Assembly (NCBI RefSeq): GCF_014268455.2
Contig: NZ_CP077085.1
Span: 3,637,001-3,701,000, forward strand
Reading direction: 5' to 3'
Source of the DNA: Pseudomonas shahriarae
Lineage (GTDB): Bacteria > Pseudomonadota > Gammaproteobacteria > Pseudomonadales > Pseudomonadaceae
DNA length: 64,000 nucleotides
Of this stretch, positions 22,491-38,561 are shown one piece after another (within the stretch, counting starts at the first letter, position 1; every line of letters starts with the position of its first letter). A model generated the notes under the pieces. That model saw only the letters and a program-made list of their open reading frames with translations. It was not told the origin of the DNA and did no database searches. The translations under genes and the position numbers were made by a program.

Positions 22491-22510
22491 CGCAGACCTA
22501 GCAGGAGCAA

Positions 22511-23638
22511 TCACTGGTAAATAATCGTAAACGTCGCCGAGGCATTCGCCGGGCCGGGGGTTACCTTGCTCGCCGTCTGCAGGTAGCGGGCGCGCAAGGG
22601 GATCGTATAACTCCCCTCGTTGGGGCGCAGGGTGAGGCCGCTGCTTTGGTTGGTTCCAAGGATGACCGAGTTGCCGTTGCGGTTCTGCACCTGCACGCCA
22701 ACCCCTGTGGCGGCGGGCGCACTGCCCGTGGCGCCAGGGTCGAGGCTCAGTACACCGTTATTCGTGTTGATCGCCGTACGCGCGGGGTCGATGCGGTACT
22801 GCAGGGTGTTACGCACCAGAGAGCCACTGCCGATGTTCGTACCAGAAGGAAAATTTCCACTTTGCGATGACCAGGCCGGCCCCGTTGTCGTATAGATCCC
22901 GTTGAACGCCGGGCAGTCATTCAAAGCGATGGAAAAATCCGTCCAGCCCGTGCTGCTGTTGAGCCCGGTGAACTTGGAGGTCAGATGAGAGCCCATGGGC
23001 ACCGAGACATCCGGTGTACGGCAGGTACTCGAGACAATCTGGATATTGCCGGAGATCCCCATACTGAAGCCGCGCATTCTCGCATCGCCGAGGTTGCCGT
23101 ACAGACTGACGACCGGCAACGTATTGCCCACCAATACACCAGGCGTTACATCGCCCAGTTTGATCAAGATCAGCTCAAAGTTCGAAGGCCCGTCAAATGG
23201 GACCACACACCTGTAGCCAGATGTGCATGTGGTCCATGCCTTGCCAGATTGCCTTGGCAGCAGGCCGCCCGAGCTGTTGAAGGCAACCCCCAGCCCCGGA
23301 ATGCTGGTTCTATAGACCTTGTTGGCGTAGGTCCCGCTGGACACATTGGCCATGGGATAACGGGAGTCGACTGTCATCTCAGTCCACTGCTGATACGGGG
23401 CATAGAGGCATTCAAGCTTGGGCGCCTGGCCCGCAGCCATGCTGAAGCGCTGACGATATACCTCGGTACCCACCGGCAGATCGCGCCCGATAGTGATCGC
23501 CGAAATCTGCAATGGCATGGAGCCCACGGCCGGCTGGATACCCTCCATGTAGGTGCAAGTGACCGCCATGGCCGTCCCCGCCGCCGCCCACAATGCCGCG
23601 ACGGCCAGGCCCGCCTTGATCAAAGCGCCAATGTTCAT
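22511..23638 (-). CDS. Fimbrial tip adhesin/minor subunit
   Basis: The 375-aa exported protein has a signal peptide (ALWAAAGTAMA, cleavage near residue 25) and a C-terminal pilin-like domain ending in ATFTIIYQ, the alternating pattern that completes donor-strand exchange. The N-terminal part with paired cysteines (VTCTYMEG, LECLYAP, TTCTSGYRC) looks like a separate receptor-binding domain. Last gene of subunit-chaperone-usher-adhesin; its ATG overlaps the usher stop (ATGA). The receptor is unknown. Confidence 0.85.
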   Translation of the reverse strand: MNIGALIKAGLAVAALWAAAGTAMAVTCTYMEGIQPAVGSMPLQISAITIGRDLPVGTEVYRQRFSMAAGQAPKLECLYAPYQQWTEMTVDSRYPMANVSSGTYANKVYRTSIPGLGVAFNSSGGLLPRQSGKAWTTCTSGYRCVVPFDGPSNFELILIKLGDVTPGVLVGNTLPVVSLYGNLGDARMRGFSMGISGNIQIVSSTCRTPDVSVPMGSHLTSKFTGLNSSTGWTDFSIALNDCPAFNGIYTTTGPAWSSQSGNFPSGTNIGSGSLVRNTLQYRIDPARTAINTNNGVLSLDPGATGSAPAATGVGVQVQNRNGNSVILGTNQSSGLTLRPNEGSYTIPLRARYLQTASKVTPGPANASATFTIIYQ

Positions 23639-26232
23639 AACTGTACCTTTTGAAGAATGTTGGGCTGCACGCTGCCAGCGACTTGCTTACCGGCCGCACA
23701 AACCGCGTCTACCTGTTGCAATTGCTGCCCTTCGCCGGGGCCCGCCGGGATGACCAGTGCGCACTGTTGATGGGTCTTGCTTCCCCAGTTGATCAGTAAC
23801 TGACGGGTTTGCGGCTTGATCCGTGCGTAGAGCTGGCCACCCTGCCCGACCACGCCGACCGAGGTGCCGTCGATATCTGTCACGCCAGCACCAAAGGGCA
23901 GGCTGCTGCCATCGTCGAGGCGTACGTTGAGCAACACTGCGCGGCCCTGGTTGGTGGTGTACTTGAGGTGCACCACCGCACCGGCGCGCGGGGCCACCTG
24001 TTGGCTGGTTTCGCTGAGTTCGACGTCCAGCGAGCTACCAATAGGGTCGATTGCCACTTCGTTCAACTCATATGGCCGCAGGTACGGAACCACGGCATTG
24101 CCGCGGCTGTCGAGCTTGAGGCCAGGGTAGCCGGACACCTTGGCCCCCTGCGCACCCGGGGCACTGACCACCGCCATGGTTTCACCGCGATAAGGAGTCA
24201 TGGTCACCCCATCGGCATGCGCCACCACGCTGCCGCTCGCGCCCACCGAGGCGCTGGTGTAGCCATCACCGCGTCCCAGGGCAGCGCTGAGCATGGCGCG
24301 CGCGCCGGTGTATTGGCCATTGAGGGCCGCGCTCTTGCTGTTACTGGCACCGTCATGGCCGACCGTCGCGCCGTAGCCATATTGACGGTCCTCGCCAGCG
24401 GTGCCGCTGATGCCGGCCTGCTCGCTGTAGTTGCCTTGGGAGTCACGTCCTACCTGTGCGGTCATTTGCGGGCTGAAGCCTGGACCGCCAAATTCCAGAG
24501 GCATGCTCATGGTCAGCAAAAAGCTGTTTTCCATGTCCCCCAGGCCCATGCGGCTGCGGTTGGCGTTCACACTGAAGCTGATGCGATTGAACTGCTTGCT
24601 GTAGCTGAACTGGTACTGCAAATCACTGCCCGGCAGGTTCCAGTAGTTCTGCGCATAGCCGCTGATTGCCACTTGCCCCCACTCCCCCAGGCTCTGGTCG
24701 GCGGTGACCGAAAAGCGACTGCGCGGGCGCCCGAACATGCTGGTGTCCCACCCCGTTTTCTCGGCATCGAGCAGTTGCATGGCGTTACTGAAGTCCAGGT
24801 ATTCGCTGGTAGAAAAACGATAAGCCGCAACGGTGAAGTTACTGCCCGTGCTGAGCACATTTTTGCTGTAGGACACCCGCATGCTCTGCCCTTTGGCGGC
24901 ACCAGTGGCCAGGTCGGTCTGGGCGTGAGTCAAGTCGATGGCCATGGCACCGATCGGCGTGCCAAACGCCAGGCCGGTGAGCACGGCGGTGTAGTCATCG
25001 CTGGACTGCATCCCGGCAAATCCGGTGAACGTATTGTTCAGGCCATATTGCACAGTGCCTTGTAGCAGGCGCGATTGCTTGTCGACGTAGTTATTGCGGG
25101 TCTCGCCTGCGGTCAGGCTGAAGCGCGAGGTACCGGGGCGCAGCAACTGGCTGACCGAGGCATAGGGCACGATGAAGTTCTGCTCGGTGCCGTCGGCTTC
25201 CGCCACGCTGACACTGAGGTCGCCGCCATAGCCGGTTGAATACAGGTCATCAATCACAAATGCCCCGGGAGCCACGGTGGTTTCCAGCAGGATGTTGCCG
25301 GCCTGGCGAATGGTCACACGGGCGTTGGTGCGGGCAATCCCACGGATCACCGGGGCATAGCCGCGCATGGAGTCGGGCAGCATGCGGTCGTCACTGGCCA
25401 GTTGCACACCACGGTAGGACAGGGTGTCGAAGATCTCGCCGGAGGTGTTGGACTCACCCACCGTCAGTTGGCTTTTCAACGCGGTGATGTCGCGTTGCGC
25501 ATAGGAGTCCAGGGCTTGGTAATTATTGCCCTGACGTGACTGCCAGCTCATCGACGCGTTGTGGCGCAGGCGCCAGTCACCCAGGTTGAGGCCGGTGTGC
25601 AGGCCCAGGAATGCCGAGTCAGAGTTGCCACTGCGGGTACGGTTACGGCTGCCATTGAAGCTGTAGCTGAGCATGCCTGCGGTCACGCCGCGATCCCACA
25701 GTTCCGGGCTGACGTATCCTCGGGCATTGCGCCGCAGCGCCGCCTGGGGAATGCTCAGGTCGAGGGCCTGGTTTTCCGGTGAAAAATTCGCGGTTGCACC
25801 CGGGATCAGACTGCCCACGGCGGCACAGCCCAGGCTGTCCAGCGCCAAAGTGCTTTCAGGCGCCAGCTTGCTCATCTCCACACCCTGACGCTCAAGCAAG
25901 CCACGCGTCATGCAGACCACCGGCTTACTGCCGTCGGCCTGGGCGTCGATGCGAATGTCCTGGCGGCTGTTCAACTGGCCGTTAAGCACTACGTCTGCAC
26001 GGTATTGCCCGGGCATCACCGGGTTGCCGGTCTGGTAGGCGCCCAAGTCGAGATTGCGCGAGTCTTCAGGCAGGAACGCATCGTTGAACTGCACCTCTTG
26101 CGCCAGCGCACCCTGTATACCCCATGCACCAGGGGCGATGGCCAATACCCTGAGGATCAAGGCAGAGAGCGGATTCAAGGCGAAGCAAGGCCGCGCCCGC
26201 AGAGAAAGCCTGCAGCTGGAAGAGGTCGACAT
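23635..26232 (-). CDS. Chaperone-usher fimbrial outer-membrane usher
   Basis: This is an 865-aa FimD/PapC/CupA3-type usher. It has an N-terminal signal peptide, an N-terminal chaperone-binding domain (VQFNDAFLPEDSRNLDLGAYQTG), a long barrel, a plug (YAPVIRGIARTNARVTIRQAGNILLETTVAPGAFVIDDL) and C-terminal domains (GTSVGVVGQGGQLYARI). It translocates chaperone-subunit complexes and assembles the fibre. It overlaps the adhesin gene by 4 bases and follows the chaperone gene after 33 bases. Confidence 0.93.
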   Translation of the reverse strand: MSTSSSCRLSLRARPCFALNPLSALILRVLAIAPGAWGIQGALAQEVQFNDAFLPEDSRNLDLGAYQTGNPVMPGQYRADVVLNGQLNSRQDIRIDAQADGSKPVVCMTRGLLERQGVEMSKLAPESTLALDSLGCAAVGSLIPGATANFSPENQALDLSIPQAALRRNARGYVSPELWDRGVTAGMLSYSFNGSRNRTRSGNSDSAFLGLHTGLNLGDWRLRHNASMSWQSRQGNNYQALDSYAQRDITALKSQLTVGESNTSGEIFDTLSYRGVQLASDDRMLPDSMRGYAPVIRGIARTNARVTIRQAGNILLETTVAPGAFVIDDLYSTGYGGDLSVSVAEADGTEQNFIVPYASVSQLLRPGTSRFSLTAGETRNNYVDKQSRLLQGTVQYGLNNTFTGFAGMQSSDDYTAVLTGLAFGTPIGAMAIDLTHAQTDLATGAAKGQSMRVSYSKNVLSTGSNFTVAAYRFSTSEYLDFSNAMQLLDAEKTGWDTSMFGRPRSRFSVTADQSLGEWGQVAISGYAQNYWNLPGSDLQYQFSYSKQFNRISFSVNANRSRMGLGDMENSFLLTMSMPLEFGGPGFSPQMTAQVGRDSQGNYSEQAGISGTAGEDRQYGYGATVGHDGASNSKSAALNGQYTGARAMLSAALGRGDGYTSASVGASGSVVAHADGVTMTPYRGETMAVVSAPGAQGAKVSGYPGLKLDSRGNAVVPYLRPYELNEVAIDPIGSSLDVELSETSQQVAPRAGAVVHLKYTTNQGRAVLLNVRLDDGSSLPFGAGVTDIDGTSVGVVGQGGQLYARIKPQTRQLLINWGSKTHQQCALVIPAGPGEGQQLQQVDAVCAAGKQVAGSVQPNILQKVQL

Positions 26233-26265
26233 AAATGACTCGCGACTAAAAAACTTGAGGTTTAA

Positions 26266-27012
26266 TCAGGGCTTGAGTGCTTTACGGGTCGGGATCAGTG
26301 CGCCGTAATCGTTGATAGCGCTGAACTCCACCTGAGCCCCCGCAGCCGGTCGGACCTTGAGCGTTGGGAGCACAAATTGGCGGGTTTCACCCGGAGCGAT
26401 CATGCCGTCTTCACTGCGCTCACGCTGGGCGCCAGCCACCAGTTCCAACTCGATCAGCGAAACATGGAACGCCGACGGATTGAAGGCCTGCAAGGCCAAG
26501 CCTTGCCCATCGCGTGCGGGCACCAATTGCCACTGCACCTGCTCGATCGCCTCGCTGGCAGTGCCTGGCAAGCCGGTCGGGCGATAAAACAATTTGATCC
26601 GCGAACGGAATGCCATTTGCAGCGTATTGATATCTGCACCCGCCTCGGGCTTGGGTGGAATTTCCAATACGTTGAGCCAGAACACCGACTCTTTGTCCTG
26701 GGCCATGGGAGCCCCGGTAAACAACACCCGCAGGCTTTGGCCCTTGGTCGGATCGATGCGCGCCACCGGCGGTGAAAGCAGGAACGGCGCCTTGGAGCTG
26801 GTCGGAGTCGACTCGACGCTGCCGGTGTCGATCCACGACTGGATCAGCGCTGGCTGCGTGCCATTGTTGTTGAGTTTTACCGTGATTTCTTTCTGGTCCG
26901 CCGGGTAGAGCAGGCGAGTTCCGGTAATCACTACACCCCCGATAGCCTGGGAACACGTCAGTGTCACAAGGCTTGCCAGGAGCAATTGTCTGAGGGCAGA
27001 TATGCAAGGCAT
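26266..27012 (-). CDS. Periplasmic fimbrial chaperone (PapD-like)
   Basis: This 248-aa protein has a signal peptide (LTCSQAIG) and the PapD fold: GVVITGTRLLYPADQKEITVKLNN strand G1/A1 with the conserved Arg, VARIDPTKGQSLRVLF, and the SVFWLNVLEIPPK motif. It binds subunits by donor-strand complementation before usher delivery. It is second in the fimbrial operon, separated from the major subunit by 72 bases that hold a stem-loop. Confidence 0.92.
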   Translation of the reverse strand: MPCISALRQLLLASLVTLTCSQAIGGVVITGTRLLYPADQKEITVKLNNNGTQPALIQSWIDTGSVESTPTSSKAPFLLSPPVARIDPTKGQSLRVLFTGAPMAQDKESVFWLNVLEIPPKPEAGADINTLQMAFRSRIKLFYRPTGLPGTASEAIEQVQWQLVPARDGQGLALQAFNPSAFHVSLIELELVAGAQRERSEDGMIAPGETRQFVLPTLKVRPAAGAQVEFSAINDYGALIPTRKALKP

Positions 27013-27037
27013 TACGTAATCCCGTTGCTGCCTGGAA

Positions 27038-27068
27038 GCACGCCCTTTTGTCGCTGAACAGGGCGTGT
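27038..27068 (-). promoter_or_regulatory. Stem-loop between fimbrial subunit and chaperone genes
   Basis: CACGCCC at 27039-27045 pairs with GGGCGTG at 27061-27067 around a 15-base loop. On the transcribed strand no T run follows, so it is more likely an RNA-processing or stability element, or a leaky attenuator, that raises subunit over downstream expression. Confidence 0.4.
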
Positions 27069-27084
27069 GTCCATGAGCGGCGAC

Positions 27085-27633
27085 TTACTGATAATTGATG
27101 GAGTAAGTCACGGAGCCAACTACGGTACCCGGAGTGGTCGGGGCTTGAGCGTAGTACTGGACAGCGTATGGCAGGATGGCGGCCTTGGAGGTTGCATCGA
27201 TGGCAATACGGCTGGTGGAAGTGACCTGCGCAGTGTTGCCGGCCTTGATCGCGTTGCCATTGGTTGCGTCAACCAATTGCAGCTGAACCTGGGTGGCAGT
27301 ACCGCTCACGTTCTTCAGGTTGCCGCTGGTTGCATCAACGCTGCCGCTCGACTCAAAGAATGCAGCAGCTGTTTTCAGCGCGGCAGAACAATCGCTCAGC
27401 TCGATATTGAAACCGGTCTGGCCTGCCACTTGGCCTTTTGCTCCCAGGGCAGCGGTAGAGACGGTTGGCAGCGTGACAGTCGACGGGCTCGCACCAGCCG
27501 CGCCGTTAACCGCAACCTTGCAGGTTTCGGCTTTCAGTTCGCCGTTGAAATCGATTTTGCCGTCTGAAGCCAGAGCAACGGTAGAGGCGGTGGCAGCGAC
27601 CAGTACAGCGAGGGCGCGAGCTTTGTAATTCAT
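27085..27633 (-). CDS. Major fimbrial subunit
   Basis: This 182-aa type-1-like pilin has a signal peptide ending at VALA-SDGK, a conserved cysteine pair (AETCKVAVNG and LSDCSAALK), an N-terminal donor strand (KIDFNGELKAET) and the C-terminal beta-zipper ending TYSINYQ. It forms the fimbrial rod. It is first in the operon and the only gene between it and the two RcsB-box-like sites upstream (27745-27761 and 27857-27873). A GGAG ribosome site lies just before the ATG. Confidence 0.92.
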   Translation of the reverse strand: MNYKARALAVLVAATASTVALASDGKIDFNGELKAETCKVAVNGAAGASPSTVTLPTVSTAALGAKGQVAGQTGFNIELSDCSAALKTAAAFFESSGSVDATSGNLKNVSGTATQVQLQLVDATNGNAIKAGNTAQVTSTSRIAIDATSKAAILPYAVQYYAQAPTTPGTVVGSVTYSINYQ

Positions 27634-27744
27634 GAGTAACTCCGAGAGAGCGATGTTCTACAGTAAGTTATAAAGCTTCCGTTTATCGGAGAGCTTCTGT
27701 GCTGTTGCGGGGCTGAGTTTAGGGAGCCCACATCGAACTCAATA

Positions 27745-27761
27745 TAGGAGCGCTCTGAAAA
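27745..27761 (-). promoter_or_regulatory. Putative RcsB-box-like operator, site B
   Basis: The minus strand reads TTTTCAGAGCGCTCCTA. The core AGAGCGCTCC is nearly palindromic. An AT-rich TATATT, a possible -10, directly follows at 27746-27741. The site is about 112 bases upstream of the fimbrial subunit start and shares its pattern with sites at 27857, 34536 and 35986. Confidence 0.5.
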
Positions 27762-27856
27762 ACAATTGAGCACGGAAAATTCCCAACAATTAAAACCACT
27801 ATAAAACTTACTGTCGCACTGCACTATTTAATGGAAAAACATTAGTAACCCGTCTA

Positions 27857-27873
27857 TAGGAGCACTCCTAAAA
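27857..27873 (-). promoter_or_regulatory. Putative RcsB-box-like operator, site A
   Basis: The minus strand reads TTTTAGGAGTGCTCCTA, containing the palindrome TAGGA-N4-TCCTA. This matches the enterobacterial RcsB box (TAAGA-N4-TCCTA) at nine of ten half-site positions. TATAGA follows directly. It lies about 224 bases upstream of the fimbrial subunit start. Confidence 0.55.
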
Positions 27874-28034
27874 ACAGGCGCTGCAATGTTTATCAATGCA
27901 GAAGCAGCGAACAACCGGTGGCCGCCATCGAGTTTTATCGAGGCGGTGAGGCAGATGTTGCGGCAGGGCATGCAATTCGCGGCGATTGCCTCATTCCCAG
28001 ATCAGCCTGTCCTGCTGTGAAGCCCCTACTCTAC

Positions 28035-30383
28035 CTAGGCTCCGCAGGGAAGCCCGGCCCTGTGCTCAAGCAGGCTACGGGCATGGCCCGCAACCGCTTC
28101 TGCTGGCCAGTTCACTTCGTCCTGCAACAGCACTTCGATACGCTGCGCGGTGGCCGCGAAGTCCTCCCAGCCGACGTCCAACGCGGCAGTGCGCAGTCTG
28201 TGTAGCGCCTCCAGCGCCATGCCGCGATCGCGCAGGGCAAGTAGTTCTATGAGGCGGTTAAGTTCCTGGCGCACAGCCTCCGGCGACCCTGGAGTTTCCA
28301 GGTACTCTGCAACTTGCGGCGCCGGGGTTACTTCGCACCAGAGTTCAATCATCTGCTGCAACATGGCCTGTTGGACCGGTTTGCTCAGTACACCATCCAT
28401 ACCGGCATCGAAACAACGTTGCAGGTATTCATTCCCGCTAAATTGCGAGAGCGCGATGATCGGGCAATATGAGCGTTCCTGTTGGAGCTGCGACTCACGA
28501 AACGCGCTGACCATGCCCTCGGCGTCGCCCTCTGGCGAGTCACAGTCGATCAGCACCATATCGACCCGGTGCGCACTGAACAACGCCACCGCCTGGTCGG
28601 CATCAGCCGCCAGCAGCGCCGCGCAACCAAGGCTGTCGAGTTGTGCCTGCAACACTTGCCGACTGGGTAGCGAGTCGTCCACCACCAACACCTGCAAACC
28701 GTTAGCCGATTCCGCGCTCGGCGCAGGCTCAGGTGCCGGCAGTTGCGGGGAAACAGCCCGCTCAACTGGCAACCACACCTCGACCTGGGTACCGACCCCC
28801 TGCAAGCTGCTGAGCACCAACCTGCCGCGCATCAAGCTGACCAGGCGCCGGCAGATCACCAGGCCCAGGCCGGTACCGCCAGTGCGCCGATAGGATTGCT
28901 TGGCCTGGGCATACGGCCGGAACAGCGAGGCTTGCGCCTGCTTGGACAAGCCTATGCCCGTATCGATGACCCGGATCACCAGCTGTCGCACCTCGACCGC
29001 AGGCTTTTCCAGCTGTTGCAACTGCACCTCTACCCGGCCCACATCGGTGAACTTGACGGCGTTGCAGATCAGGTTGCGCAGCACCTGCGCCAGACGCAGT
29101 TCGTCCAGCAACAATGGGGCGCCGGGACGCTCGCCGGTGACGAGCAGCTCAATGCCCTTTTCCTGTGCTTGCGCTCGATGCTCATCGACTATCCGCAAGA
29201 CCAGCGCCCATAGGTCCACCGGTTCAAGATTGAGGGCCAGTTGCCCGGCTTCCATCTTGGAGATATCCAGCACATCATCCACCAGCCGCAGCAAGGTATT
29301 GGCGCCGCTATTGGCCAAGCTGGTGAAATGTCGCTGCTGCTCATCGAGCGGGGTGTGCTCCAGCAGTTCCACGGCGGCCAACACTGCGTTCATCGGCGAA
29401 CGCACTTCATGGCTGATGACCGCCAGGAACATCGCCTTCTCCCGTTCGCTGTTCATGGCCTGGCGCCGTTGCAGGCGACTTTGCACGACCAGCCCGACGA
29501 GCACTGCCACCACGGCCAGCAGCAACCACAGCTCACCTTGGTAGTGCTCGGCAATGGCCTTGACGGTGGGAATATCCAGGTCCATATCCACAAACCAGGC
29601 GTCATAGATCGCCTTGCGCTCTTCGCCGCTGATGGACGCCAGCACCTTGTCCAAAATAGACAGCAGGAGCACATCGCTGTCACGTACTGCCATGCTCACG
29701 CCGGTATGCAGCGACGGCAGCACCCCAGAAATCTGCAGTACCCCATGATATTGGCGGGACAGGTAGGGAATCAGCAGCCATTCCGAAGCAATCGCCGCGT
29801 CCGTGCGGCCGTCCTTGACCATCGCCATCATGTCCAGCGCATTCAGGGCTGAAACAATGGTTATCCCCGGGGCCTTACGCTTCAAAAAAGCGACGTAATC
29901 CTCCTCACGCCCCAGCACCACCACCCGCTTGCCGGCGAGTTGCTCCAAGTCGGCAAACGGTTGATCGCCAAAACGGCTGACCATAACGGTCGAGCTGGTG
30001 TTGTAGGGCGCGGTGTAACGCAGCCCGAGATCCTTTGCCGGGTCATCATCCCGGCGCCGGGTGGACAAGATATCGACTTCGCCGCTGATCAGCATGTCCT
30101 TGCGGGCGCTGCGCGTAGTGGTGGTGACGGGTTCGAAATACAGGCCCGTGCGCGATGCAATCAACCCCAGGTATTTGGCTGACAACCCTCTGAGTTGGCC
30201 ATTGCTGATGTATTCAAAAGGCTGCAAGTTATCGAATACGCCAACACGCAGCACCGGATGGGCGGCAATCCAATCACGCTCCTGCTGGGTCAAGTCCAGC
30301 GGCGTCGGGCCTGCCTGCACCCCGACGCCCAGGTTTCCCAACACGAACGCTATCAGCAGCAGGCGTAGCAATTTGGCGTTCAT
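28035..30383 (-). CDS. Hybrid sensor kinase SBP-HisKA-HATPase-REC-HPt (RocS/PvrS/RcsC-like), first paralogue
   Basis: This 782-aa inner-membrane sensor has, in order, a signal/anchor, a periplasmic SBP_bac_3-like domain (about 40-265), a membrane helix (about 285-305), HisKA with the phosphorylated His in FLAVISHEVRSPMNAVL, HATPase (NLICNAVKFTD, DTGIGLS, GGTGLGLVI), REC (VLVVDD, phosphoacceptor in VLIDCDSP) and a C-terminal HPt with His in ALHRLRTAALD. The HPt signature is weak (HRLRT rather than HRLKG). The ATG at 30383 overlaps the stop of the paralogue (ATGA). It likely senses a periplasmic ligand and feeds the two RcsB-like regulators. Confidence 0.88.
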   Translation of the reverse strand: MNAKLLRLLLIAFVLGNLGVGVQAGPTPLDLTQQERDWIAAHPVLRVGVFDNLQPFEYISNGQLRGLSAKYLGLIASRTGLYFEPVTTTTRSARKDMLISGEVDILSTRRRDDDPAKDLGLRYTAPYNTSSTVMVSRFGDQPFADLEQLAGKRVVVLGREEDYVAFLKRKAPGITIVSALNALDMMAMVKDGRTDAAIASEWLLIPYLSRQYHGVLQISGVLPSLHTGVSMAVRDSDVLLLSILDKVLASISGEERKAIYDAWFVDMDLDIPTVKAIAEHYQGELWLLLAVVAVLVGLVVQSRLQRRQAMNSEREKAMFLAVISHEVRSPMNAVLAAVELLEHTPLDEQQRHFTSLANSGANTLLRLVDDVLDISKMEAGQLALNLEPVDLWALVLRIVDEHRAQAQEKGIELLVTGERPGAPLLLDELRLAQVLRNLICNAVKFTDVGRVEVQLQQLEKPAVEVRQLVIRVIDTGIGLSKQAQASLFRPYAQAKQSYRRTGGTGLGLVICRRLVSLMRGRLVLSSLQGVGTQVEVWLPVERAVSPQLPAPEPAPSAESANGLQVLVVDDSLPSRQVLQAQLDSLGCAALLAADADQAVALFSAHRVDMVLIDCDSPEGDAEGMVSAFRESQLQQERSYCPIIALSQFSGNEYLQRCFDAGMDGVLSKPVQQAMLQQMIELWCEVTPAPQVAEYLETPGSPEAVRQELNRLIELLALRDRGMALEALHRLRTAALDVGWEDFAATAQRIEVLLQDEVNWPAEAVAGHARSLLEHRAGLPCGA

Positions 30384-32767
30384 CGCTGGGTCACCCGCGA
30401 GGCACGCGCGGGCGGCAGCACTTCCAGGGGAGCATCCCCGCCCAAGGCCCGCCAATGCTCAACCAACGCCCGCAGGGCCTGGGCGTAGGCCGGGCAATCC
30501 CAGCCCTCCTGCGCGCGCAGCAGGCGCTCCAGATGCTCGGCACTCTGCCCCAGGGCCAGCCACTCCATAATCAGCGCAGCACCGTGCAGACGATGGGCAA
30601 CGTGGACGGCGCTGGGGCGGTCACAGAGCGCTATGGCCTTGATCAGGCTCCCCAGGTCACTGGCCATCTCCCGATTGATCGCCGCCTGATCCAGTTGAGG
30701 GGCCATCAGGCTCGCACGAGGTGCAGCCAGGGTGACGTCGCACCAGCGCTCGATCACTTCGCGCAGTTGCCCAAGGCGTATCGGCTTGCTCAATGCGGCG
30801 TCCATCCCAGCATCCATGCAACGTTTGAGGTGCTGTTCACCGGTCAGGGCAGAAATGGCAATGATTGGGCAGCGTGGACGCCCCAAGCCGCGCTCGAACT
30901 CACGCAGTTCGCGAACCAGGCTGTAACCGTCCTGGTCCGGCAGGTCACAGTCCATCAGAATCAATTGGTAGGCCTGCTGCACGAACAAGCTGTGGGCCTG
31001 GGCGGCATCGGCGGCGATCACCGCCTCGCAGCCAAAGCCGCCGATCTGCGCCCGCAGCACTTCCTGGTTGGCCAGGGTGTCTTCCACGACCAGGATTTGC
31101 AGGCCGTCCGTCTCGGCCTCTGGCGCGGACTGCTGAACCTGCGGTGGTTCAGCAGTCTGGGGGGCAACCGTTACCGGCACGCAGAGGATGAAGGTCGTGC
31201 CAACCCCCGGCTCACTGCTGAGTGTCAACGACCCCTGCATCAAGTTCGCCAGTTGCTGGCAGATCACCAGGCCCAGCCCGGTACCACCGGAGCGCTTGTA
31301 GGATTGACTGGCCTGGGCATATGGCCGGAACAACGACGCCTGTACCGCTTCACTGATACCGATCCCGGTGTCGCGCACCTTGACTTGCAACTGTTGACCA
31401 CCGGCCGGTAGGGCCAACAGGTACAGCTTGATGTCGACACCGCCGACATCGGTGAACTTGATGGCATTGGAAAGCAGGTTATGAAGAATCTGCGTCAGGC
31501 GGGAGCTGTCGAGTAACAGCAAGGGCAGCGCGGTGTGGATGCTCACATTCAGGCTCAGGTGCTTTTCCCGGGCGCGCAGGCGGTGCAAGCCAACTACACC
31601 CTGCACCAGCGCCGTCACATCGGTCGGTTCAATGCTCAGGCGCAACGCCCGCGCACCCGAGCCTGGCGTGTCCAGCACGTTATCCAGCAAACGCACCAAC
31701 GCATTGGCGCCGCCATTGGCAAGGTGCACAAAGTGGCGCTGCTGTTCATTGAGCCGGGTGTGCCCCAATAACTCCATGGCCGCCAGCACGGCATTCATAG
31801 GCGAACGGATTTCATGGCCCATGACCGCCAGAAACATGGTTTTTTCCTGCTCGTTGCGCACAGCCTGACGCCACCGGAGATGGCCGCGATAGACCAGCAC
31901 ACACAGGCTGGCCAGCAGCAACGCCCCCATGATCAGTACATGCCAGTAGTGGCTGGAGACGGCAACCAGGGTTGGAACATCCAGACCCAGGTCGTGATAC
32001 CAGTGCTCGTACATCTCATTGCGTTGCTCGGCAGTGATCGAGCCCAGGACTTTTTCGAGGATCGAATGCAGCAGCGCTTGGTCCGAGCGAACCGCCATGC
32101 TGACATCCAGCATCTGGCTGCCGACCACACCTGAAGCCTCCAGGATGCCCTGGAACTGGCGGTACAGATAAGGCATCAGGAAGATTTCCGTGGCAACGAC
32201 CGCGTCAGCACTGCCGTCCCGGACGCGGGTCAGCATCTCCAGGGCCGATTTGCTTTTGATCAGCGTGACCTCGATCCCTGATGCTCCGACGATCTCTTCG
32301 TAATGATCCACGTCGGGAACCATCACGGTTTTGCCATGCAGTTGGTCGAGGTCGAAAATATCCGGGTCTTCGAAGCGCGTCACGATGATCGGCGAGGTGG
32401 TCTGGTAGGTCAGCAAGGCAAGGCCCTTGGTGGCCGGCTCAGTCCTGAAACGCAAGTAAGAGGACAGCAGATCCACCTGGCCATCGAGGAGCATTTGCTC
32501 GCGTATCTCAATGGTCTTTCCCGGGACATAGGTGAATTCAAGGCCGGTGGCATCGGTCACCAATTGCAGGTAATGCGCTGAGCGTCCCTGCAGGGTGCCA
32601 TCACGCATGTACTCAAAAGGTATCAGGTCTTCGACCACGCCCACCCGCAACACCGGATGCTGCTGTATCCAGCGCTGCTCCTGCTCGCTCAGTTGAACCG
32701 GGCCAGCAGCGAAGACGGTCCCTCCAAGCGACCACAACAGCACGCCCCCCAGCCACCACCGCCTCAT
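30380..32767 (-). CDS. Hybrid sensor kinase SBP-HisKA-HATPase-REC-HPt, second paralogue
   Basis: This 795-aa protein has the same architecture as its neighbour: signal sequence (GGTVFAAG), SBP_bac_3-like sensor (PVLRVGVVEDLIPFEYM), membrane helix (LIMGALLLASLCVLVY), HisKA His in FLAVMGHEIRSPMNAVL, HATPase (NLLSNAIKFTD, DTGIGIS, GGTGLGLVI), REC Asp in ILMDCDLPDQDG, and HPt His in VAHRLHGAALI. Extensive identity with the neighbouring kinase indicates a tandem duplication. Its ATG overlaps the response-regulator stop (ATGA), so all are translationally coupled. It resembles RocS1 or RcsC/PvrS of P. aeruginosa, known controllers of Cup fimbriae. Confidence 0.88.
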   Translation of the reverse strand: MRRWWLGGVLLWSLGGTVFAAGPVQLSEQEQRWIQQHPVLRVGVVEDLIPFEYMRDGTLQGRSAHYLQLVTDATGLEFTYVPGKTIEIREQMLLDGQVDLLSSYLRFRTEPATKGLALLTYQTTSPIIVTRFEDPDIFDLDQLHGKTVMVPDVDHYEEIVGASGIEVTLIKSKSALEMLTRVRDGSADAVVATEIFLMPYLYRQFQGILEASGVVGSQMLDVSMAVRSDQALLHSILEKVLGSITAEQRNEMYEHWYHDLGLDVPTLVAVSSHYWHVLIMGALLLASLCVLVYRGHLRWRQAVRNEQEKTMFLAVMGHEIRSPMNAVLAAMELLGHTRLNEQQRHFVHLANGGANALVRLLDNVLDTPGSGARALRLSIEPTDVTALVQGVVGLHRLRAREKHLSLNVSIHTALPLLLLDSSRLTQILHNLLSNAIKFTDVGGVDIKLYLLALPAGGQQLQVKVRDTGIGISEAVQASLFRPYAQASQSYKRSGGTGLGLVICQQLANLMQGSLTLSSEPGVGTTFILCVPVTVAPQTAEPPQVQQSAPEAETDGLQILVVEDTLANQEVLRAQIGGFGCEAVIAADAAQAHSLFVQQAYQLILMDCDLPDQDGYSLVRELREFERGLGRPRCPIIAISALTGEQHLKRCMDAGMDAALSKPIRLGQLREVIERWCDVTLAAPRASLMAPQLDQAAINREMASDLGSLIKAIALCDRPSAVHVAHRLHGAALIMEWLALGQSAEHLERLLRAQEGWDCPAYAQALRALVEHWRALGGDAPLEVLPPARASRVTQR

Positions 32768-33429
32768 GGCGAGCCAATGATTTTGTTGAGCTTGAACAGT
32801 TCGTTGTTCGACGTAACCCCCAGCTTGCGAAACGCCGTGGTTTTCTGGGTGCTGATGGTCTTGATGCTGCGATTGAACTTCTCGGCAATTTCAGTGATGG
32901 TCATGCCCGCCAGATAACAACGAATGACCTCCTGCTCGCGACTGGTCAACTCCGCCAGGATCAGGGCGTCGGGCACTTCGCCAGGGCCTTTGCGGGTATC
33001 ACTGGTGACGGTTTCGGCCAGGCGATAGGTCATGTCAGGACTCAGGTACACCGCCCCCGACGCCACTTTGCGAATGGCCTTGACCAACTGGTCCATGTCC
33101 TCACCCTTGCCGACAAACCCGCGGGCTCCGACACGCATGGCCAGGCCCACGGTCGCCGGGTCGTGATGGGTGGACAACACAAGGATGTGGCTAGCAGGAA
33201 ACTTGACTCGCAAGGCACGGATCAATGACACGCCGTCCAACTCCTCGGGACTCAGGGAGAAATCCAGTAGCAGCAAGTCTGCAGGCGCTGTGGCGAGACC
33301 GGCAATCAGGTCGCGGCTGCGCTCATAAATGCCTACTACTTCAAAGTTCGCCTCGGCCGCCAGGGTATTGGCCAGACCATGTCGAACAACCGCGTGATCA
33401 TCCAACAAAGCAATACGTATAGATTTCAT
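32764..33429 (-). CDS. RcsB/NarL-type response regulator, first paralogue
   Basis: This 221-aa regulator has a REC domain (IALLDDHAVVRHG; phosphoacceptor Asp in LLLLDFSLSP; Lys in GFVGKGEDM) and a LuxR-type helix-turn-helix (LTSREQEVIRCYLAGMTITEIAEKF, NRSIKTISTQK). The recognition helix strongly recalls RcsB (NRSIKTISSQK). It is a likely transcription activator of the fimbrial operon. The start at 33429 aligns with that of the second paralogue (MKSIRIALLDDH against MKRLQIALLDDH); the longer frame to 33444 is unsupported. Confidence 0.9.
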   Translation of the reverse strand: MKSIRIALLDDHAVVRHGLANTLAAEANFEVVGIYERSRDLIAGLATAPADLLLLDFSLSPEELDGVSLIRALRVKFPASHILVLSTHHDPATVGLAMRVGARGFVGKGEDMDQLVKAIRKVASGAVYLSPDMTYRLAETVTSDTRKGPGEVPDALILAELTSREQEVIRCYLAGMTITEIAEKFNRSIKTISTQKTTAFRKLGVTSNNELFKLNKIIGSP

Positions 33430-33542
33430 TATGATCGAGCCCACTCAACCCAGCGCAAACCGCGCTGCCGAAAACAGGGATACCCAACGATAGAACAGTA
33501 TATGCAATAACCGGCAAATGACACGGCGCCAGCCCGCCAGGT

Positions 33543-34208
33543 TCAGATACCTTCAATGAGGTGCTTGATCTTGAATAGCTCGTTGTTCGATATCACACCC
33601 AACTTGCGAAATGCCGAAGCCTTTTGGGTGCTGATGGTCTTGATGCTACGGCTGAATTTCTCAGCAATTTCGGTGATGGTCATGCCCGTCAGATAACAGC
33701 GAATCACTTCCTGCTCACGGGCAGAGAGACTGACAAAGCGCAACGCATCCTCGCGATTGCGCGCCTCGCCGTCATAGTTGACCGCAGTGGCTTCGGCAAC
33801 CCTGTAGGCCATGTCCGGGCTCAGGTAAACCGCCCCCGACGCCACCAGCCGGACGGCGTCGACCAACTGGCCCATGTCTTCACCCTTGCCGAGAAATCCC
33901 CGGGCACCGGCACGCAAGGCCAGGATCACGGTAGCGGCGTCATGGTGCGTAGAGAACACCAGGATGCGGCATTGTGGAAACTTCACCCGTAACGCTCGAA
34001 TCAGTAACACGCCGTCCAACTCGCTGGGCCCCAGGACATAGTCCAGCAACAGCACCTGCGCCGGGTCCTTGGCCAACCCTGCCAACAGTTCACGCGTCCG
34101 AGCGTAGACACCGACCACTTCAAAATCAGGTTCCTGCAGCAATCGATTGACCAGGCCATGTCGCACGATTGCATGATCATCCAGCAAAGCAATTTGTAAG
34201 CGTTTCAT
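33543..34208 (-). CDS. RcsB/NarL-type response regulator, second paralogue
   Basis: This 221-aa protein, roughly two thirds identical by eye to the regulator just downstream, has REC (IALLDDHAIVRHG, phosphoacceptor in LLLLDYVLGP, Lys in GFLGKGEDM) and a LuxR-type domain with SRSIKTISTQK. The near-identical recognition helices suggest both proteins bind the same sites, while REC differences could give different kinase pairing. A 113-base gap separates it from the next regulator; it is probably the first gene of the regulator-kinase operon. Confidence 0.9.
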   Translation of the reverse strand: MKRLQIALLDDHAIVRHGLVNRLLQEPDFEVVGVYARTRELLAGLAKDPAQVLLLDYVLGPSELDGVLLIRALRVKFPQCRILVFSTHHDAATVILALRAGARGFLGKGEDMGQLVDAVRLVASGAVYLSPDMAYRVAEATAVNYDGEARNREDALRFVSLSAREQEVIRCYLTGMTITEIAEKFSRSIKTISTQKASAFRKLGVISNNELFKIKHLIEGI

Positions 34209-34589
34209 AGATCACAGGACACTCTGTATAACGAGCAAAAAGATGAAAAATAACGCTATTTCATCATTGGTAAGTTGCCGCCAGGGAAGACGGACCTACA
34301 ACATCAATTCCATCCGTGCAACTGAGCCATCGCACATTAAAAACAAACAGGCGAACTTTCGATCAGGCAATACAACACCCACCGGCAAACTTTAAGTTGC
34401 CAGGCAAGTAGTCGACTTTTTGAGATTCAAGACATCCAGCAGTGGTTATCGAATGGGCAGAGCAGTTAACTCCAGCGGCATACAATATAAAAAAATCGAT
34501 GATGGAAATTTAAGGCCATGACGAAACAATTGAAATAAGAGCACTCCTAAAAACCGCCTCCTCCCAGAGCCAGACGGACAGAAATATTT
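34209..34589. other. Gene-free interval upstream of the regulator operon
   Basis: No open frame of note and no RNA gene is recognised. The sequence is AT-rich and should hold the promoter of the regulator-kinase operon. The only structured element I can name is the RcsB-box-like site at 34536-34552, which would leave a leader of about 320 bases. Confidence 0.6.
34536..34552 (-). promoter_or_regulatory. Putative RcsB-box-like operator, site C
   Basis: The minus strand reads TTTTAGGAGTGCTCTTA; on the plus strand its core is TAAGAGCACTCCTA, which fits the enterobacterial RcsB box half-sites TAAGA-N4-TCCTA exactly. The first 14 bases (TTTTAGGAGTGCTC) are identical to site A. TTATTT follows directly. 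It faces the regulator-kinase operon, so autoregulation is possible. Confidence 0.55.
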
Positions 34590-35924
34590 TTACGGGTGTT
34601 TCCCCCGCTCAATCAGGAAGCTCAAGAAGGCCTCGATTTCCATCGGCCGCGCCAGCGCATAACCCTGCCCGACGCGGCAGCCCAGGCGATGCAGTAAAGG
34701 GATCGTGGACTCATCCTCAATGCCCTCGGCCACCAGGTTCAGATTCAGCAGGCCGGCCCAACTGACGATGCCCGCAATCACCTTGCGTGATGAGGAATGC
34801 TGCTCTACAGCACGCACGAATGAGCCGTCGATTTTCATCTCATCGAACGATAGGTTCGCCAACAGGTTCAGCGTAGCCGCGCCGGTACCAAAATCATCCA
34901 GGGACACCTGGAAACCCTTGGCGCGGATCGCCGTCAGTGATGCCGAAAGATGAAGCTCATCCGGTTCGTGTACGTCCTCGGTAAGCTCGATTTTCAGCAA
35001 ACGGTTCGGTAAGCCGGCCTGCTGCATCCGTGTGGCAAGGCGATCGGCAAAATGTGGGGTGCAAATGGTTTTTGCCGATGCATTCACCGCGATGGGGATC
35101 AGGATGTTTTCACGCTTGAGCGCCAGCATCGCCCTGATGCTCCACATTTCCACCAGGCTGAACAGCAACAGGTCCAGGCCCAGTCGGTTAACCAACGGCA
35201 TCAGCACCGACGGCGGGATTTCACCAAAGCGCGGGTGCTTCCAGCGCACCAGCGCCTCAGCCCCCACTACACGCCGGCTCAACAGCTCGAATTGTGGCTG
35301 GAACACAAAACGCAATCCCTCCCCCGTGGTCAGCGCGTTGATCACTTCATCTTCGGCCAAGGCGTCGAATGTGGTCATGCACAACTGCGGGTCCGGTTTC
35401 GCCCGGGTCAGCACCACGGCTCGCAAGGCATCGCCCAGTTCCAGGGTTGCGCCTTCACGCAGAATTTCCACCAGGATCCCTGCAGCCCGGGCCAATCGTG
35501 CATGAGACTCCAACGCACTGATGGCCACCCCCCCCATGTACTTGATCCAGAACTGCTGGGTGCCAGTATGCGGGGCAGTCACGCTGCCCCCTTTCACATC
35601 GCGCAGTTGGGCATTCAAGGTGGCTTTGCCGGTCCAGAAGATACTCGGCAACTGCGCCACGGCACCGGCTTCGTGCAGCCCCTTGAGCAGGCTTGGCAGC
35701 ATCAGCCCATCATCACATCCCGGGAGAATTTCGCAGACGATGACGTCCACCGGCTGTTCCAACAGCCATGCCTCCACGTCCTTCAACGATTGAGCATTGG
35801 TCAGCGCTGTAACGCCCATACTGCTCAGCGCGCCGGCTAACCGATCGGCACAGGTGACGTCAGCTGCCAACGTGATAACGCGTAGGGCGTTGAACTCCTC
35901 AGACACGGCGGCATTTACGATCAT
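34590..35924 (-). CDS. EAL-domain c-di-GMP phosphodiesterase with degenerate REC-like domain (RocR/PvrR-like)
   Basis: The 444-aa cytoplasmic protein has an N-terminal REC-like domain (about 14-130) and a C-terminal EAL domain (about 190-440). All EAL catalytic residues I can check are present: EALVRW, the Asn in AVNAS, IELTEDV, SLDDFGTG, MKIDGSF, VAEGIEDE and GCRVGQGYALARP, so it should hydrolyse c-di-GMP. The REC phosphoacceptor position is Glu65 (VIVCEILPG) instead of Asp. RocR and PvrR in P. aeruginosa are REC-EAL proteins encoded next to fimbrial two-component systems. It probably lowers c-di-GMP or competes for the HPt output here. Confidence 0.88.
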   Translation of the reverse strand: MIVNAAVSEEFNALRVITLAADVTCADRLAGALSSMGVTALTNAQSLKDVEAWLLEQPVDVIVCEILPGCDDGLMLPSLLKGLHEAGAVAQLPSIFWTGKATLNAQLRDVKGGSVTAPHTGTQQFWIKYMGGVAISALESHARLARAAGILVEILREGATLELGDALRAVVLTRAKPDPQLCMTTFDALAEDEVINALTTGEGLRFVFQPQFELLSRRVVGAEALVRWKHPRFGEIPPSVLMPLVNRLGLDLLLFSLVEMWSIRAMLALKRENILIPIAVNASAKTICTPHFADRLATRMQQAGLPNRLLKIELTEDVHEPDELHLSASLTAIRAKGFQVSLDDFGTGAATLNLLANLSFDEMKIDGSFVRAVEQHSSSRKVIAGIVSWAGLLNLNLVAEGIEDESTIPLLHRLGCRVGQGYALARPMEIEAFLSFLIERGKHP

Positions 35925-35985
35925 GACAAAAATTTCCCGATACTTTTCCAGAAAAAAAGCTTAGCAGTACCAAAAAAGATGCAAA

Positions 35986-36002
35986 TAGGACTGGGACTAA
36001 AA
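35986..36002 (-). promoter_or_regulatory. Putative operator, site D (diverged)
   Basis: The minus strand reads TTTTAGTCCCAGTCCTA. It shares TTTTAG-N6-TCCTAT with site A, but the inner bases are not palindromic. TATTTG follows directly. It lies 62 bases upstream of the EAL gene and has the same orientation as that gene. Confidence 0.35.
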
Positions 36003-36197
36003 GTACCCTTGTTCGCGGGGAGACCCACAACGAAGCGCTGATCGGTAGGGATCAGAGCTGGCCAATGCGCGCTGATAGGCGCGCTAGTGAAAAATAACGT
36101 CGAGCGATGAATTATTTAGTGTCCTCATGTATCTGACCCAATAGACCATGCCATTAAAACAATGGCATCGACACCGATCAGCAACAGAGTGACCTGT

Positions 36198-37700
36198 ATG
36201 AAATCGCGCAAGAAAAGTGTCGGCCCTATCGGGTTGAAAGACATCACCATTGTCGACGACGCCAAGATGCGCAAGGCGATCACCGCCGCGGCGCTGGGCA
36301 ATGCCATGGAGTGGTTCGACTTCGGCGTGTATGGCTTTGTCGCCTTCGTACTGGGCAAGGTGTTCTTTCCCGGCGCCGACCCTGGCGTACAGATGATCGC
36401 AGCGTTGGCAACCTTTTCCGTGCCGTTCCTGATCCGCCCCCTGGGGGGCCTGTTCTTCGGTGCGTTGGGGGATAAATACGGGCGGCAAAAAGTCCTCGCG
36501 GCCACCATCGTGATCATGTCCCTCAGTACCTTTGCCATCGGCCTGATCCCGTCCTATGCCTCGATAGGCATCTGGGCGCCGATCCTGTTGCTGTTGGCCA
36601 AAATGGCCCAGGGTTTCTCGGTGGGCGGGGAATATACCGGTGCCTCGATCTTCGTCGCCGAATACGCACCCGACCGCAAGCGCGGCTTTCTCGGCAGCTG
36701 GCTGGACTTCGGCTCCATTGCCGGCTTTGTACTCGGCGCCGGCGTGGTGGTCGGGATCTCGTCGGTACTGGGTGAAGAACAGTTCCTGGAATGGGGCTGG
36801 CGCCTGCCGTTTTTCCTCGCCCTGCCCCTGGGCATGATCGGCCTGTACCTGCGCCACGCCCTGGAGGAAACCCCGGCCTTCCAGCAGCACGTCGAGAAGC
36901 TCGAACAAGGTGACCGCGAAGGCCTGGCACGCGGCCCGCGCGTGTCGTTCAAGGAAATCGCCACCCAACACTGGCGCAGCCTGATGACCTGTGTCGGCGT
37001 GGTGGCGGTGACCAACGTCACCTACTACATGCTGCTCACCTACATGCCCAGCTACCTGACACACAACCTGCACTACAGCGAAAACCATGGCGTGCTGATC
37101 ATCATCGCGATCATGGTGGGCATGCTGTTCGTGCAGCCCTTGATCGGCTTTATCAGCGACAAGGTCGGACGTCGGCCCTTTATCATCGCTGGCAGCATCG
37201 GCCTGCTGGCCCTGGCGATTCCGGCCTTTATGCTGATCAACAGCGGCAAGCTGGGGCTGATCTTTGCAGGCTTGCTGATACTGGCAGTGGTGCTGAACTT
37301 CTTTATCGGCGTGATGGCGTCTACCCTGCCGGCGATGTTCCCCACCCATATCCGCTATAGCGCCCTGGCCAGTGCATTCAACATCTCGGTGCTGATCGCC
37401 GGCCTGACCCCGACTGCCGTGGCCTGGCTGGTGGAAAGCACCAACGACCTGTATATGCCCGCCTACTACCTGATGGTCATTGCCGTGGTAGGCCTGGTCA
37501 CCGGCCTGACCATGAAGGAAACCGCCAACAAACCCCTGCGCGGCGCGGCGCCGGCGGCGTCGGATATTGAAGAAGCTCGGGAGCTGTTGCAGGAACACCA
37601 CGACAATATCGAACAGAAAATCGAAGACCTCGACGAGCAGATCGCCGAGCTGGAGGCCAAGCGCAAGAACCTGGCGCAACAGCATCCGCGGATTGACTGA
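36198..37700 (+). CDS. proP: MFS osmolyte transporter ProP (proline/glycine betaine)
   Basis: This 500-aa 12-helix MFS transporter of the metabolite:H+ symporter group has AAALGNAMEWFDFGVYG at helix 1, the DKYGRQKVL loop 2-3 motif and SDKVGRRPFI. A C-terminal coiled-coil tail (HHDNIEQKIEDLDEQIAELEAKRKN) is the hallmark of ProP osmosensory transporters. It likely imports proline or betaine under high osmolality. The ATG at 36198 follows GAGTGACC; an upstream ATG at 36162 adds 12 residues. It is monocistronic, followed by REPIN sequence. Confidence 0.88.
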   Translation: MKSRKKSVGPIGLKDITIVDDAKMRKAITAAALGNAMEWFDFGVYGFVAFVLGKVFFPGADPGVQMIAALATFSVPFLIRPLGGLFFGALGDKYGRQKVLAATIVIMSLSTFAIGLIPSYASIGIWAPILLLLAKMAQGFSVGGEYTGASIFVAEYAPDRKRGFLGSWLDFGSIAGFVLGAGVVVGISSVLGEEQFLEWGWRLPFFLALPLGMIGLYLRHALEETPAFQQHVEKLEQGDREGLARGPRVSFKEIATQHWRSLMTCVGVVAVTNVTYYMLLTYMPSYLTHNLHYSENHGVLIIIAIMVGMLFVQPLIGFISDKVGRRPFIIAGSIGLLALAIPAFMLINSGKLGLIFAGLLILAVVLNFFIGVMASTLPAMFPTHIRYSALASAFNISVLIAGLTPTAVAWLVESTNDLYMPAYYLMVIAVVGLVTGLTMKETANKPLRGAAPAASDIEEARELLQEHHDNIEQKIEDLDEQIAELEAKRKNLAQQHPRID

Positions 37701-37703
37701 CTG

Positions 37704-37913
37704 ATCCCACGGGGGATCTCATAGGGACAGAGAACTGTGGTCCCACCACAAATCCAATGTGGGAGCTGGCTTGCCTGCGATGTCGGCGGGTCAGCCACCC
37801 ACTATAGTGATTGGTACACCGTCATCGCGGGCAAGCCCGCTCCCACAGGGGACCTCATTGGGGCAGAGAATTGTGGTCCCACCACAAATCCGATGTGGGA
37901 GCTGGCTTGCCTG
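37704..37913. repeat. REPIN plus direct duplication
   Basis: A REP doublet at 37758-37847 (TGTGGGAGCTGGCTTGCCTGC ... inverted GCGGGCAAGCCCGCTCCCACA). The 74-base stretch 37704-37777 recurs at 37840-37913, offset 136 bases, including GTGGTCCCACCACAAATCC and a REP head. The second copy is cut off at GCTTGCCTG. It lies downstream of proP, where such elements stabilise transcript ends. Confidence 0.75.
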
Positions 37914-37921
37914 AACTGGAC

Positions 37922-37960
37922 GGCCCCTATGAGAAAAACCCGACGTGTGGGGCCATTTTC
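37922..37960 (+). terminator. Possible terminator after proP
   Basis: GGCCCC at 37922-37927 can pair with GGGGCC at 37949-37954, followed by ATTTTCTT. The loop is long (21 bases), so this is weak. Confidence 0.3.
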
Positions 37961-38014
37961 TTGAGCAGACGGTGCGTTACTCCCCTGCGGCGCAGGGCCC
38001 GCCGCGGCGTCCTT

Positions 38015-38347
38015 TCAGCGGCCATTGTTACGGCACAGCCCCATGACTTTATATTCGATGGTATTGAGCTTGCCGCTCGAGTCTTCGTAGGTCATCCGCG
38101 ACGGTACGATGTCACAGGAGCGGATCGGCGGGGTCACGCTGACCACCTTGGCGATGTCCAGTTTCATCCCGTAGCGATAGTCCTGGACCACTGGCCGGTC
38201 CTTGCCATGTTTTAACGCGTAAGCCTCCATGGCTTTCTGGTTATCGCTCATCAACGCCTCAAATGCACGATCACTGCCTCCCGTGGCGAGCACGACCGTA
38301 GACAATGACAACGCCAATGCAGCAATACTCAGTTTCAACAGGTTCAT
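38015..38347 (-). CDS. DUF2790 family small exported protein
   Basis: This is a 110-aa protein with a signal peptide (LSIAALALSLSTVVLA) and the DUF2790 pattern KHGKDRPVVQDYRYGMKLDIAKVVSVT ending in a YKVMGLCRN segment with one of two cysteines (the other in IRSCDIVP). The family is small, periplasmic, nearly confined to Pseudomonas, and often induced by copper or stress; function unknown. Monocistronic. Confidence 0.8.
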   Translation of the reverse strand: MNLLKLSIAALALSLSTVVLATGGSDRAFEALMSDNQKAMEAYALKHGKDRPVVQDYRYGMKLDIAKVVSVTPPIRSCDIVPSRMTYEDSSGKLNTIEYKVMGLCRNNGR

Positions 38348-38561
38348 CGGGTTTACCTCTCAAGTCACTCATTCCAGGCTTGAGATTAACGAACCGACCC
38401 TGTCAGCAAGGTAGCTTGATGATTACCTTTCTGTTATCCGCAACCAAACAGTGCCTGCAACGGCAACAAGCATCACCGACTAAGCGCCGACGCGGCCAGT
38501 TGTGCTACCCCGAGGGTGACTCCAGGCTCATCACCGTTCAGGTAAGGCTCAAACAGCGCCA

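Follow-up and report, generated by a model that had tools for sequence, protein, structure and literature searches.

A 64,000-nucleotide stretch of the Pseudomonas shahriarae chromosome (RefSeq assembly GCF_014268455.2, contig NZ_CP077085.1; G000:C1:3637001-3701000 of a 6.05 Mb genome), hereafter termed the window, contains a fimbrial locus with four short RcsB-box-like sites, A to D. These sites are very probably operators of the RocA/RcsB type, through which the pilin, response regulator 2 (RR2) and EAL promoters would be activated, with site A as an extra upstream site. Unless otherwise stated, coordinates are positions in the window.

Genes of the locus and the four boxes

The locus is encoded on the minus strand in the order EAL gene, RR2, RR1, histidine kinases HKa and HKb, pilin, chaperone, usher and adhesin, as assigned by Pfam. 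The EAL-domain protein (34590..35924, 444 aa; Pfam EAL, E 1.8e-54) is cyclic diguanosine monophosphate (c-di-GMP) phosphodiesterase-like, and the motifs EAL, DDFGTG, KID and EGIE are all present. RocR and PvrR carry a receiver domain at the N-terminus of the EAL protein; here, none was detected with Pfam in residues 1–196, and about 190 N-terminal residues were without a Pfam match. RR2 (33543..34208, 221 aa; Response_reg and GerE) is an RcsB/RocA-type response regulator with RcsB (helix RSIKTISSQK) as best solved-structure matches, its nearest named relatives being found in P. proteolytica (95%) and P. brenneri (92%). RR1 (32764..33429) was identified with Pfam and by alignment as a paralogue of RR2, 68% identical and with the same recognition helix. 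Both members of this tandem pair (32764-34208) are present in 9 of 10 orthologous loci, the tenth, of P. spelaei (L056), having one regulator.

Pfam domains of the hybrid sensor kinases were SBP_bac_3, HisKA, HATPase_c, receiver and Hpt for HKa (30380..32767) and SBP_bac_3, HisKA, HATPase_c and receiver for HKb (28035..30383), in which no Pfam match to Hpt was obtained. The fimbrial operon is opened by the major pilin (27085..27633; FimA, Fimbrial) and further comprises the fimbrial chaperone (26266..27012; PapD_N, PapD_C), the outer membrane usher (23635..26232; Usher, E 3.9e-165) and a tip adhesin-like fimbrial subunit (22511..23638), the MrkD-like receptor domain of which scored under the Pfam cut-off. 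An Rfam scan of 22000-38500 gave no match at gathering scores.

The four matching 17-mers described in the initial annotation were recovered on the minus strand at 27873-27857 (A), 27761-27745 (B), 34552-34536 (C) and 36002-35986 (D), all intergenic and oriented toward the next gene. As 22-mers on the same strand, the sites are TTTTTAGGAGTGCTCCTATAGA (A, 27853..27874), TTTTTCAGAGCGCTCCTATATT (B, 27741..27762, predicted fimbrial-promoter operator), TTTTTAGGAGTGCTCTTATTTC (C, 34532..34553, predicted RR2-promoter operator) and CTTTTAGTCCCAGTCCTATTTG (D, 35982..36003, predicted EAL-promoter operator, with the left half TTTAGTCC). Site C, which reads TAAGAGCACTCCTA on the plus strand, is the sole exact match to the 14-bp inverted repeat TAAGAN4TCCTA within the window; one mismatch each was counted for site A, which reads TAGGAGCACTCCTA, and site B, and site D is outside the matches at up to two mismatches. 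The A-N-G-A contacts of RcsB are present in both halves of A and C and in the right half only of B and D. Site D, in which the left half differs, is a conserved variant and no plain RcsB box. AT-rich hexamers (TATAGA, TATATT, TTATTT, TATTTG) abut the boxes, as had been noted before, and each shares the terminal TA of its box. Directly upstream of RR1, which comes after RR2, no box match was found in a scan with the relaxed form.

Conservation and specificity of the box

Boxes A, B and D were kept in 10/10 distinct orthologous loci with diverged flanks, the pairs L047/L057 and L048/L055 being treated as the same genomes; the site patterns of the orthologues were drawn up after inspection of the matrix sites. 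For site C, often weaker (below 15 bits in L049), a counterpart was present in all 9 loci with RR2, and loss of this site in relatives was thereby ruled out. Comparison of the same gaps in related strains thus revealed that the sites are kept, not lost, where the locus persists. The distance to the start codon is near constant (126–129 bp for B and 78–82 bp for D; six loci), and A and B are 108–133 bp apart in the orthologues. Although wiring of this type has been described before, conservation of the layout to this degree is unusual.

Among 249 Pseudomonas genomes, the exact 19-bp pattern TTTTMRKMSYRNTCCTATW, which excludes site C, was found at 23 places in 9 genomes (reversed control: 5), and 21 of the 23 places belong to the present locus, to related loci or to an apparent decayed second copy. 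An RR2 relative with at least 61% identity is encoded in 8 of the 249 genomes; the exact pattern was present in 7 of these 8 vs. 2 of the 241 others, and in the eighth (G140, L050) a near form of D was seen by eye upstream of the EAL gene. The whole-genome scan suggested in the initial annotation was also run on the genome of origin. Good matches are not frequently scattered there, since the relaxed form matched exactly at six places, of which four are sites A to D and two belong to the apparent decayed copy; no wider regulon was indicated by the exact pattern. That the similarity arose by chance, or represents inherited sequence without function, is extremely improbable: loose RcsB-box matches in the window are indeed as frequent as expected, but the boxes are conserved amid diverged flanks, and the exact-pattern specificity, the permuted-matrix test and the -10 spacing test (both described below) all speak against it.

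Two of the 23 exact places are stray (G141, G144); they were inspected and are unexplained. The two boxes of this apparent second copy (L041 7445-7465 and 15572-15592, corresponding to G000:C1:4333444-4333464 and 4341571-4341591) are B-like and D-like and bracket a different chaperone-usher operon. By eye, the B-like box precedes a pilin-like fragment and the D-like box a short stretch resembling an EAL N-terminus; neither fragment was among the tblastn matches (1e-8, stretches of more than 60 residues). Three further places in the genome of origin are not claimed as sites: 1130161, which is exact to the first longer pattern and fails the relaxed form; 3711601, which has one mismatch and lies inside a computed open reading frame; and 387812 (G000:C1; L155 3313-3331), a one-mismatch box without TANNNT at 18–19 bp. 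The last is located 307 bp upstream of an autotransporter-like gene, the start and beta-domain of which are in two overlapping frames.

A 22-bp matrix, trained on 6 orthologous loci, was applied to 74 further loci encoding RR relatives, including L056, which has the gene set of the window minus the second regulator. Sites of at least 18 bits were obtained in 14 of the 74 loci, as against a mean of 0.57 (maximum 4) for 30 column-permuted matrices. At 15 bits or more, a site was present in 15/15 loci with an RR identity of at least 60% vs. 9/64 others; 5 of these 15 are orthologous, L055 and L057 among them belonging to training genomes, and with these 5 set aside 10/10 loci retained a site. The box-bearing loci with at least 60% identity include Paraburkholderia, Variovorax, Mitsuaria and Janthinobacterium. 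In 12 of 15 loci, the box ends 58–62 bp upstream of the aligned EAL start (L061 at 14.5 bits). Other boxes are located upstream of fimbrial genes (L056, L088, L064), of YadA-type trimeric autotransporters (L059, L061, L066, L085) and, in L063, of a 2963-aa protein with BapA_N; the corresponding gene of L060 is YadA-type by N-terminal likeness, its scanned part being without a Pfam match.

In P. chlororaphis (L063 3275) and P. protegens (L064 3794), box-like sites, each followed after about 20 bp by a TTAAGT hexamer, are located upstream of a protein with LVFLRHAEKP, which is histidine-phosphatase-like by eye. A 21.2-bit box is present in L046 (2304-2325, reversed locus coordinates) at a second upstream EAL-like gene, the product of which has 31.6% identity to the EAL protein of the window. 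Searches for the RR returned the own genome only among 293 genomes of the order (E ≤ 1e-60) and no match among 25 sister-genus genomes (E ≤ 1e-38). A plasmid search yielded a Janthinobacterium plasmid encoding a 72% relative, as well as 7 further relatives below 60%; the same Janthinobacterium plasmid was the only match in the plasmid search for the EAL protein.

Predicted promoter layout and probable regulators of the boxes

Of 76 sites with at least 15 bits, 41 have a hexamer TANNNT that starts 18 or 19 bp past the 22-mer, vs. a mean of 3.1/76 in shuffled stretches and of 1.15 (maximum 5) for other offset pairs. After removal of sites with similar downstream sequence, 30/64 and 25/57 sites had TANNNT, vs. 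2.5 and 2.3 in shuffles; bases downstream of the 22-mer were not used in matrix training. Within the window, the predicted -10 elements on the minus strand are TAAACT for the fimbrial promoter (27716..27721, 19 bp past B; TA[AC]ACT in 10/10 orthologous loci), TAAATT for RR2 (34507..34512, 19 bp past C; TA[AG][ACG]TT in 9/9) and TAAGCT for the EAL gene (35958..35963, 18 bp past D; TAAG[CA]T in 10/10). Transcripts would accordingly start at about 27709 (pilin), 34500 (RR2) and 35951 (EAL).

With the hexamer start taken as -12, the box centre is placed at -42.5 for B and C and at -41.5 for D, and the touching hexamers fall at about -37 to -31, where none is TTGACA-like and the -35 is poor by eye. 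B, C and D thus have the class II arrangement of an operator near -41.5, a proper -10 and a poor -35, and A does not. Since TANNNT follows 18–19 bp downstream, the box would lie near -42 with the touching hexamers at the -35 position, and activation is favoured. In the initial annotation, the touching hexamers had been considered as -10 elements, with the box at -11 to -27, which is contradicted by the conserved TANNNT downstream; the touching hexamers are probably not the -10 elements. It is improbable that the box is placed in the spacer and serves for repression or as an integral promoter element. Such an arrangement could draw on the TAT following the box, which is highly conserved; the touching hexamer, however, fits TANNNT in 16/76 sites vs. 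41/76 for the hexamer 18–19 bp further on, the latter is kept at constant spacing (10/10 at B and D, 9/9 at C), and many sites of other loci read TCCGAT, which disrupts the touching hexamer at its first position.

Site A would be located at about -154 relative to the predicted pilin start point. It is unlikely that the functional fimbrial operator is A, with B secondary, or that the two act cooperatively via a DNA loop. Among the boxes, A has the highest symmetry, and it is retained in 10/10 loci at 108–133 bp from B, but it is B that has TANNNT in 10/10 and A that is without it at 18–19 bp, and the A–B distance was reckoned to be no fixed multiple of the helical turn.

Both RR1 and RR2 were confirmed to carry RSIKTISTQK, vs. 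RSIKTISSQK in RcsB. In the RcsB–DNA crystal structure, bases of the TTAGGAA and TCTAAGA half-sites are contacted by K180 and S184 (PMC5829831); by the numbering made here, these residues correspond to the K and the second S in the helix RSIKTISSQK. A box was present in 15/22 loci with K180 and S/T184 equivalents vs. 4/49 others, an association that is inflated by relatedness and was counted over 71 of 79 loci (excluding 5 orthologous loci and 3 in which no helix was recognised); L098, L121 and L124, with two helices each, were put in the S/T class. As binders, RR1 and RR2 are not distinguishable; single-regulator loci also carry the same box.

Ten loci (L080, L084, L089, L092, L094, L099, L100, L105, L109, L112) encode a regulator with RSANTISTQK, in which K180 is replaced, next to a divergent usher/two-chaperone operon and without a 15-bit box; among loci with RSANTIS or RSASTIS, a site was found in 1/19 (L127). 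The RSANTISTQK loci of Pseudomonas probably use another operator.

Operators for another regulator of the cell, e.g. a different LuxR-type response regulator, are most improbable. Other RcsB-like regulators do exist in the genome, such as a third relative at C1:3131245; this protein, however, has RSRKTISGQK, and a box was present in 1 of 21 loci with K180 and G184. In addition, the box tracks the RR1/RR2 family, being present in 7/8 genomes with the family and in 2/241 without.

Several observations weigh against an operator role of the kind preferred here. Of the three RcsB-contacted bases, two are missing from the left half of D. In the window, TAAGAN4TCCTA at up to two mismatches is not enriched (14 found vs. 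12.4 expected); in the genome of origin, the longer pattern at up to one mismatch occurs at 42 places vs. 40 in the reversed control, and the relaxed longer form at up to two mismatches at 51 vs. 61 in the control. The offsets of 18 and 19 bp had been noticed before they were tested, and site A is without TANNNT at these offsets in orthologues except L056 (TATTTT, 18 bp). No box was found at the usual distance from the EAL gene in L088, L066 and also L062. An RcsB-type helix is not sufficient for a box, because five loci with RSIKTISSQK (L065, L086, L087, L096, L097) have none at 15 bits, although sites in L065 reach 14.8 and 13.6 bits. Finally, the sequences share ancestry, and the counts are therefore not independent.

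The proposal of the initial annotation that the sites link both regulators, the EAL gene and the fimbriae in one circuit has good support. Conservation, specificity and the association with regulator type and contact residues all speak for it; the link covers pilin, RR2 and EAL gene, and does not directly include RR1. From the sequence we infer binding, phosphorylation, activation, the signs of the feedback and the way in which RR1 and RR2 share the work. HKa and HKb would phosphorylate RR2, RR1 or both. A regulator dimer would then occupy B, C and D, centred at about -41.5 to -42.5 beside sigma region 4 of RNA polymerase, and could thereby activate three promoters with a good -10 and no recognisable -35, those of the fimbrial operon, RR2 and the EAL gene. 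Activation of RR2 would constitute a positive feedback, probably extending to RR1 and the kinases behind RR2, and activation of the EAL phosphodiesterase a brake on c-di-GMP. Site A would serve as an additional upstream site at the fimbrial promoter.

Two kinds of box and comparison with known systems

A left half of the ..TCC type (TTTAGTCC) was counted in 16 of 20 EAL sites vs. 1 of 31 adhesin sites in a hand-made table in which orthologous copies are counted separately, some sites are below 15 bits, and sites at regulators and unassigned genes are left out, one of which (L061 8453) has a TCC half. With the orthologous group counted once, 8/12 EAL sites are of this type (hand count). The TTTAGTCC half of D is identical in 10 orthologues, and the distance to the -10 is mostly the same for both box classes. 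The half typical of EAL sites may represent a tuned phosphodiesterase operator of lower or different affinity. A single code with two target classes, i.e. a near-symmetrical TTTAGGAG left half at adhesins and a lopsided TTTAGTCC at EAL genes, can be put forward tentatively. If it holds, the EAL-type half would change the threshold of the response or be recognised by a different subunit, adhesin and c-di-GMP brake could be switched on in order, and the module would exchange its adhesin class (fimbria, YadA-type, BapA-type) between species with the paired code retained. One half-site would then offer a sharp and cheap handle on the different tuning of adhesin and phosphodiesterase promoters.

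By analogy with cupD/RcsB/PvrR and Roc, the regulators, their targets and the approximate operator all represent a type already described. Neither the constant distance to the -10 nor the EAL-type half was found described in a search made mostly without full texts and without the Roc figures and supplements; the main text of a 2026 chromatin immunoprecipitation sequencing study (PMC13086498) did not mention the Roc regulator names. The defined architecture (box, 18–19 bp, -10) would predict adhesion targets of Roc/Rcs-type systems in Pseudomonas and Betaproteobacteria and ties the box to two DNA-contact residues.

As in the Roc and Rcs-Pvr systems, regulators with a receiver and a LuxR-type helix-turn-helix of the RcsB type occur here together with hybrid sensor kinases. 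In P. aeruginosa, cupD is activated by RcsB, and the cupD1 promoter depends critically on a GAA in an RcsAB-like box (PMC3842833); RcsB also raises pvrR (PMC3842833, PMC2696094). The cupD-rcsB/rcsC/pvrS/pvrR cluster of PA14 (PAPI-1) and the present locus both group an RcsB-type regulator, hybrid sensors, an EAL protein and a chaperone-usher fimbria. In contrast to the published descriptions of that cluster, the present locus has two tandem regulators and four mapped boxes, three of them with a fixed -10 spacing, including those at the EAL gene and RR2, and no receiver was detected in its EAL protein.

The Roc system (RocS1/S2, RocA1/A2/A3, RocR) likewise has paralogous regulators and an antagonistic EAL protein (PMC12051241). 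RocA1, RocA2 and RocA3 have very similar motifs in DNA affinity purification sequencing and bind in vitro at roc1, cupB and cupC, so that the roc1 locus and cup operons are shared in vitro targets (PMC12051241). Several roc loci act there as a single network, with the cup operons and lepBA among its targets, whereas here regulators and predicted targets lie in one locus. With the enterobacterial RcsB/RcsAB box, the present sites share the TTAGGA/TAAGA half-sites and the same contact lysine; they differ in the SBP-hybrid kinases, the T at the S184 equivalent and the other left half in D.

BvgA belongs to the NarL/FixJ family and has an SBP-type sensor. The last BvgA site of the Bordetella fim promoters coincides with the -35 position, where it abuts or overlaps a poor -35 (PMC7250471). 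Here, by contrast, one box is present per -42 position, and no array of adjacent dimers was seen, no search having been aimed at one. BvgA at fim and fha resembles the arrangement predicted here in that a response regulator is placed at fimbrial promoters near -35 (PMC7250471).

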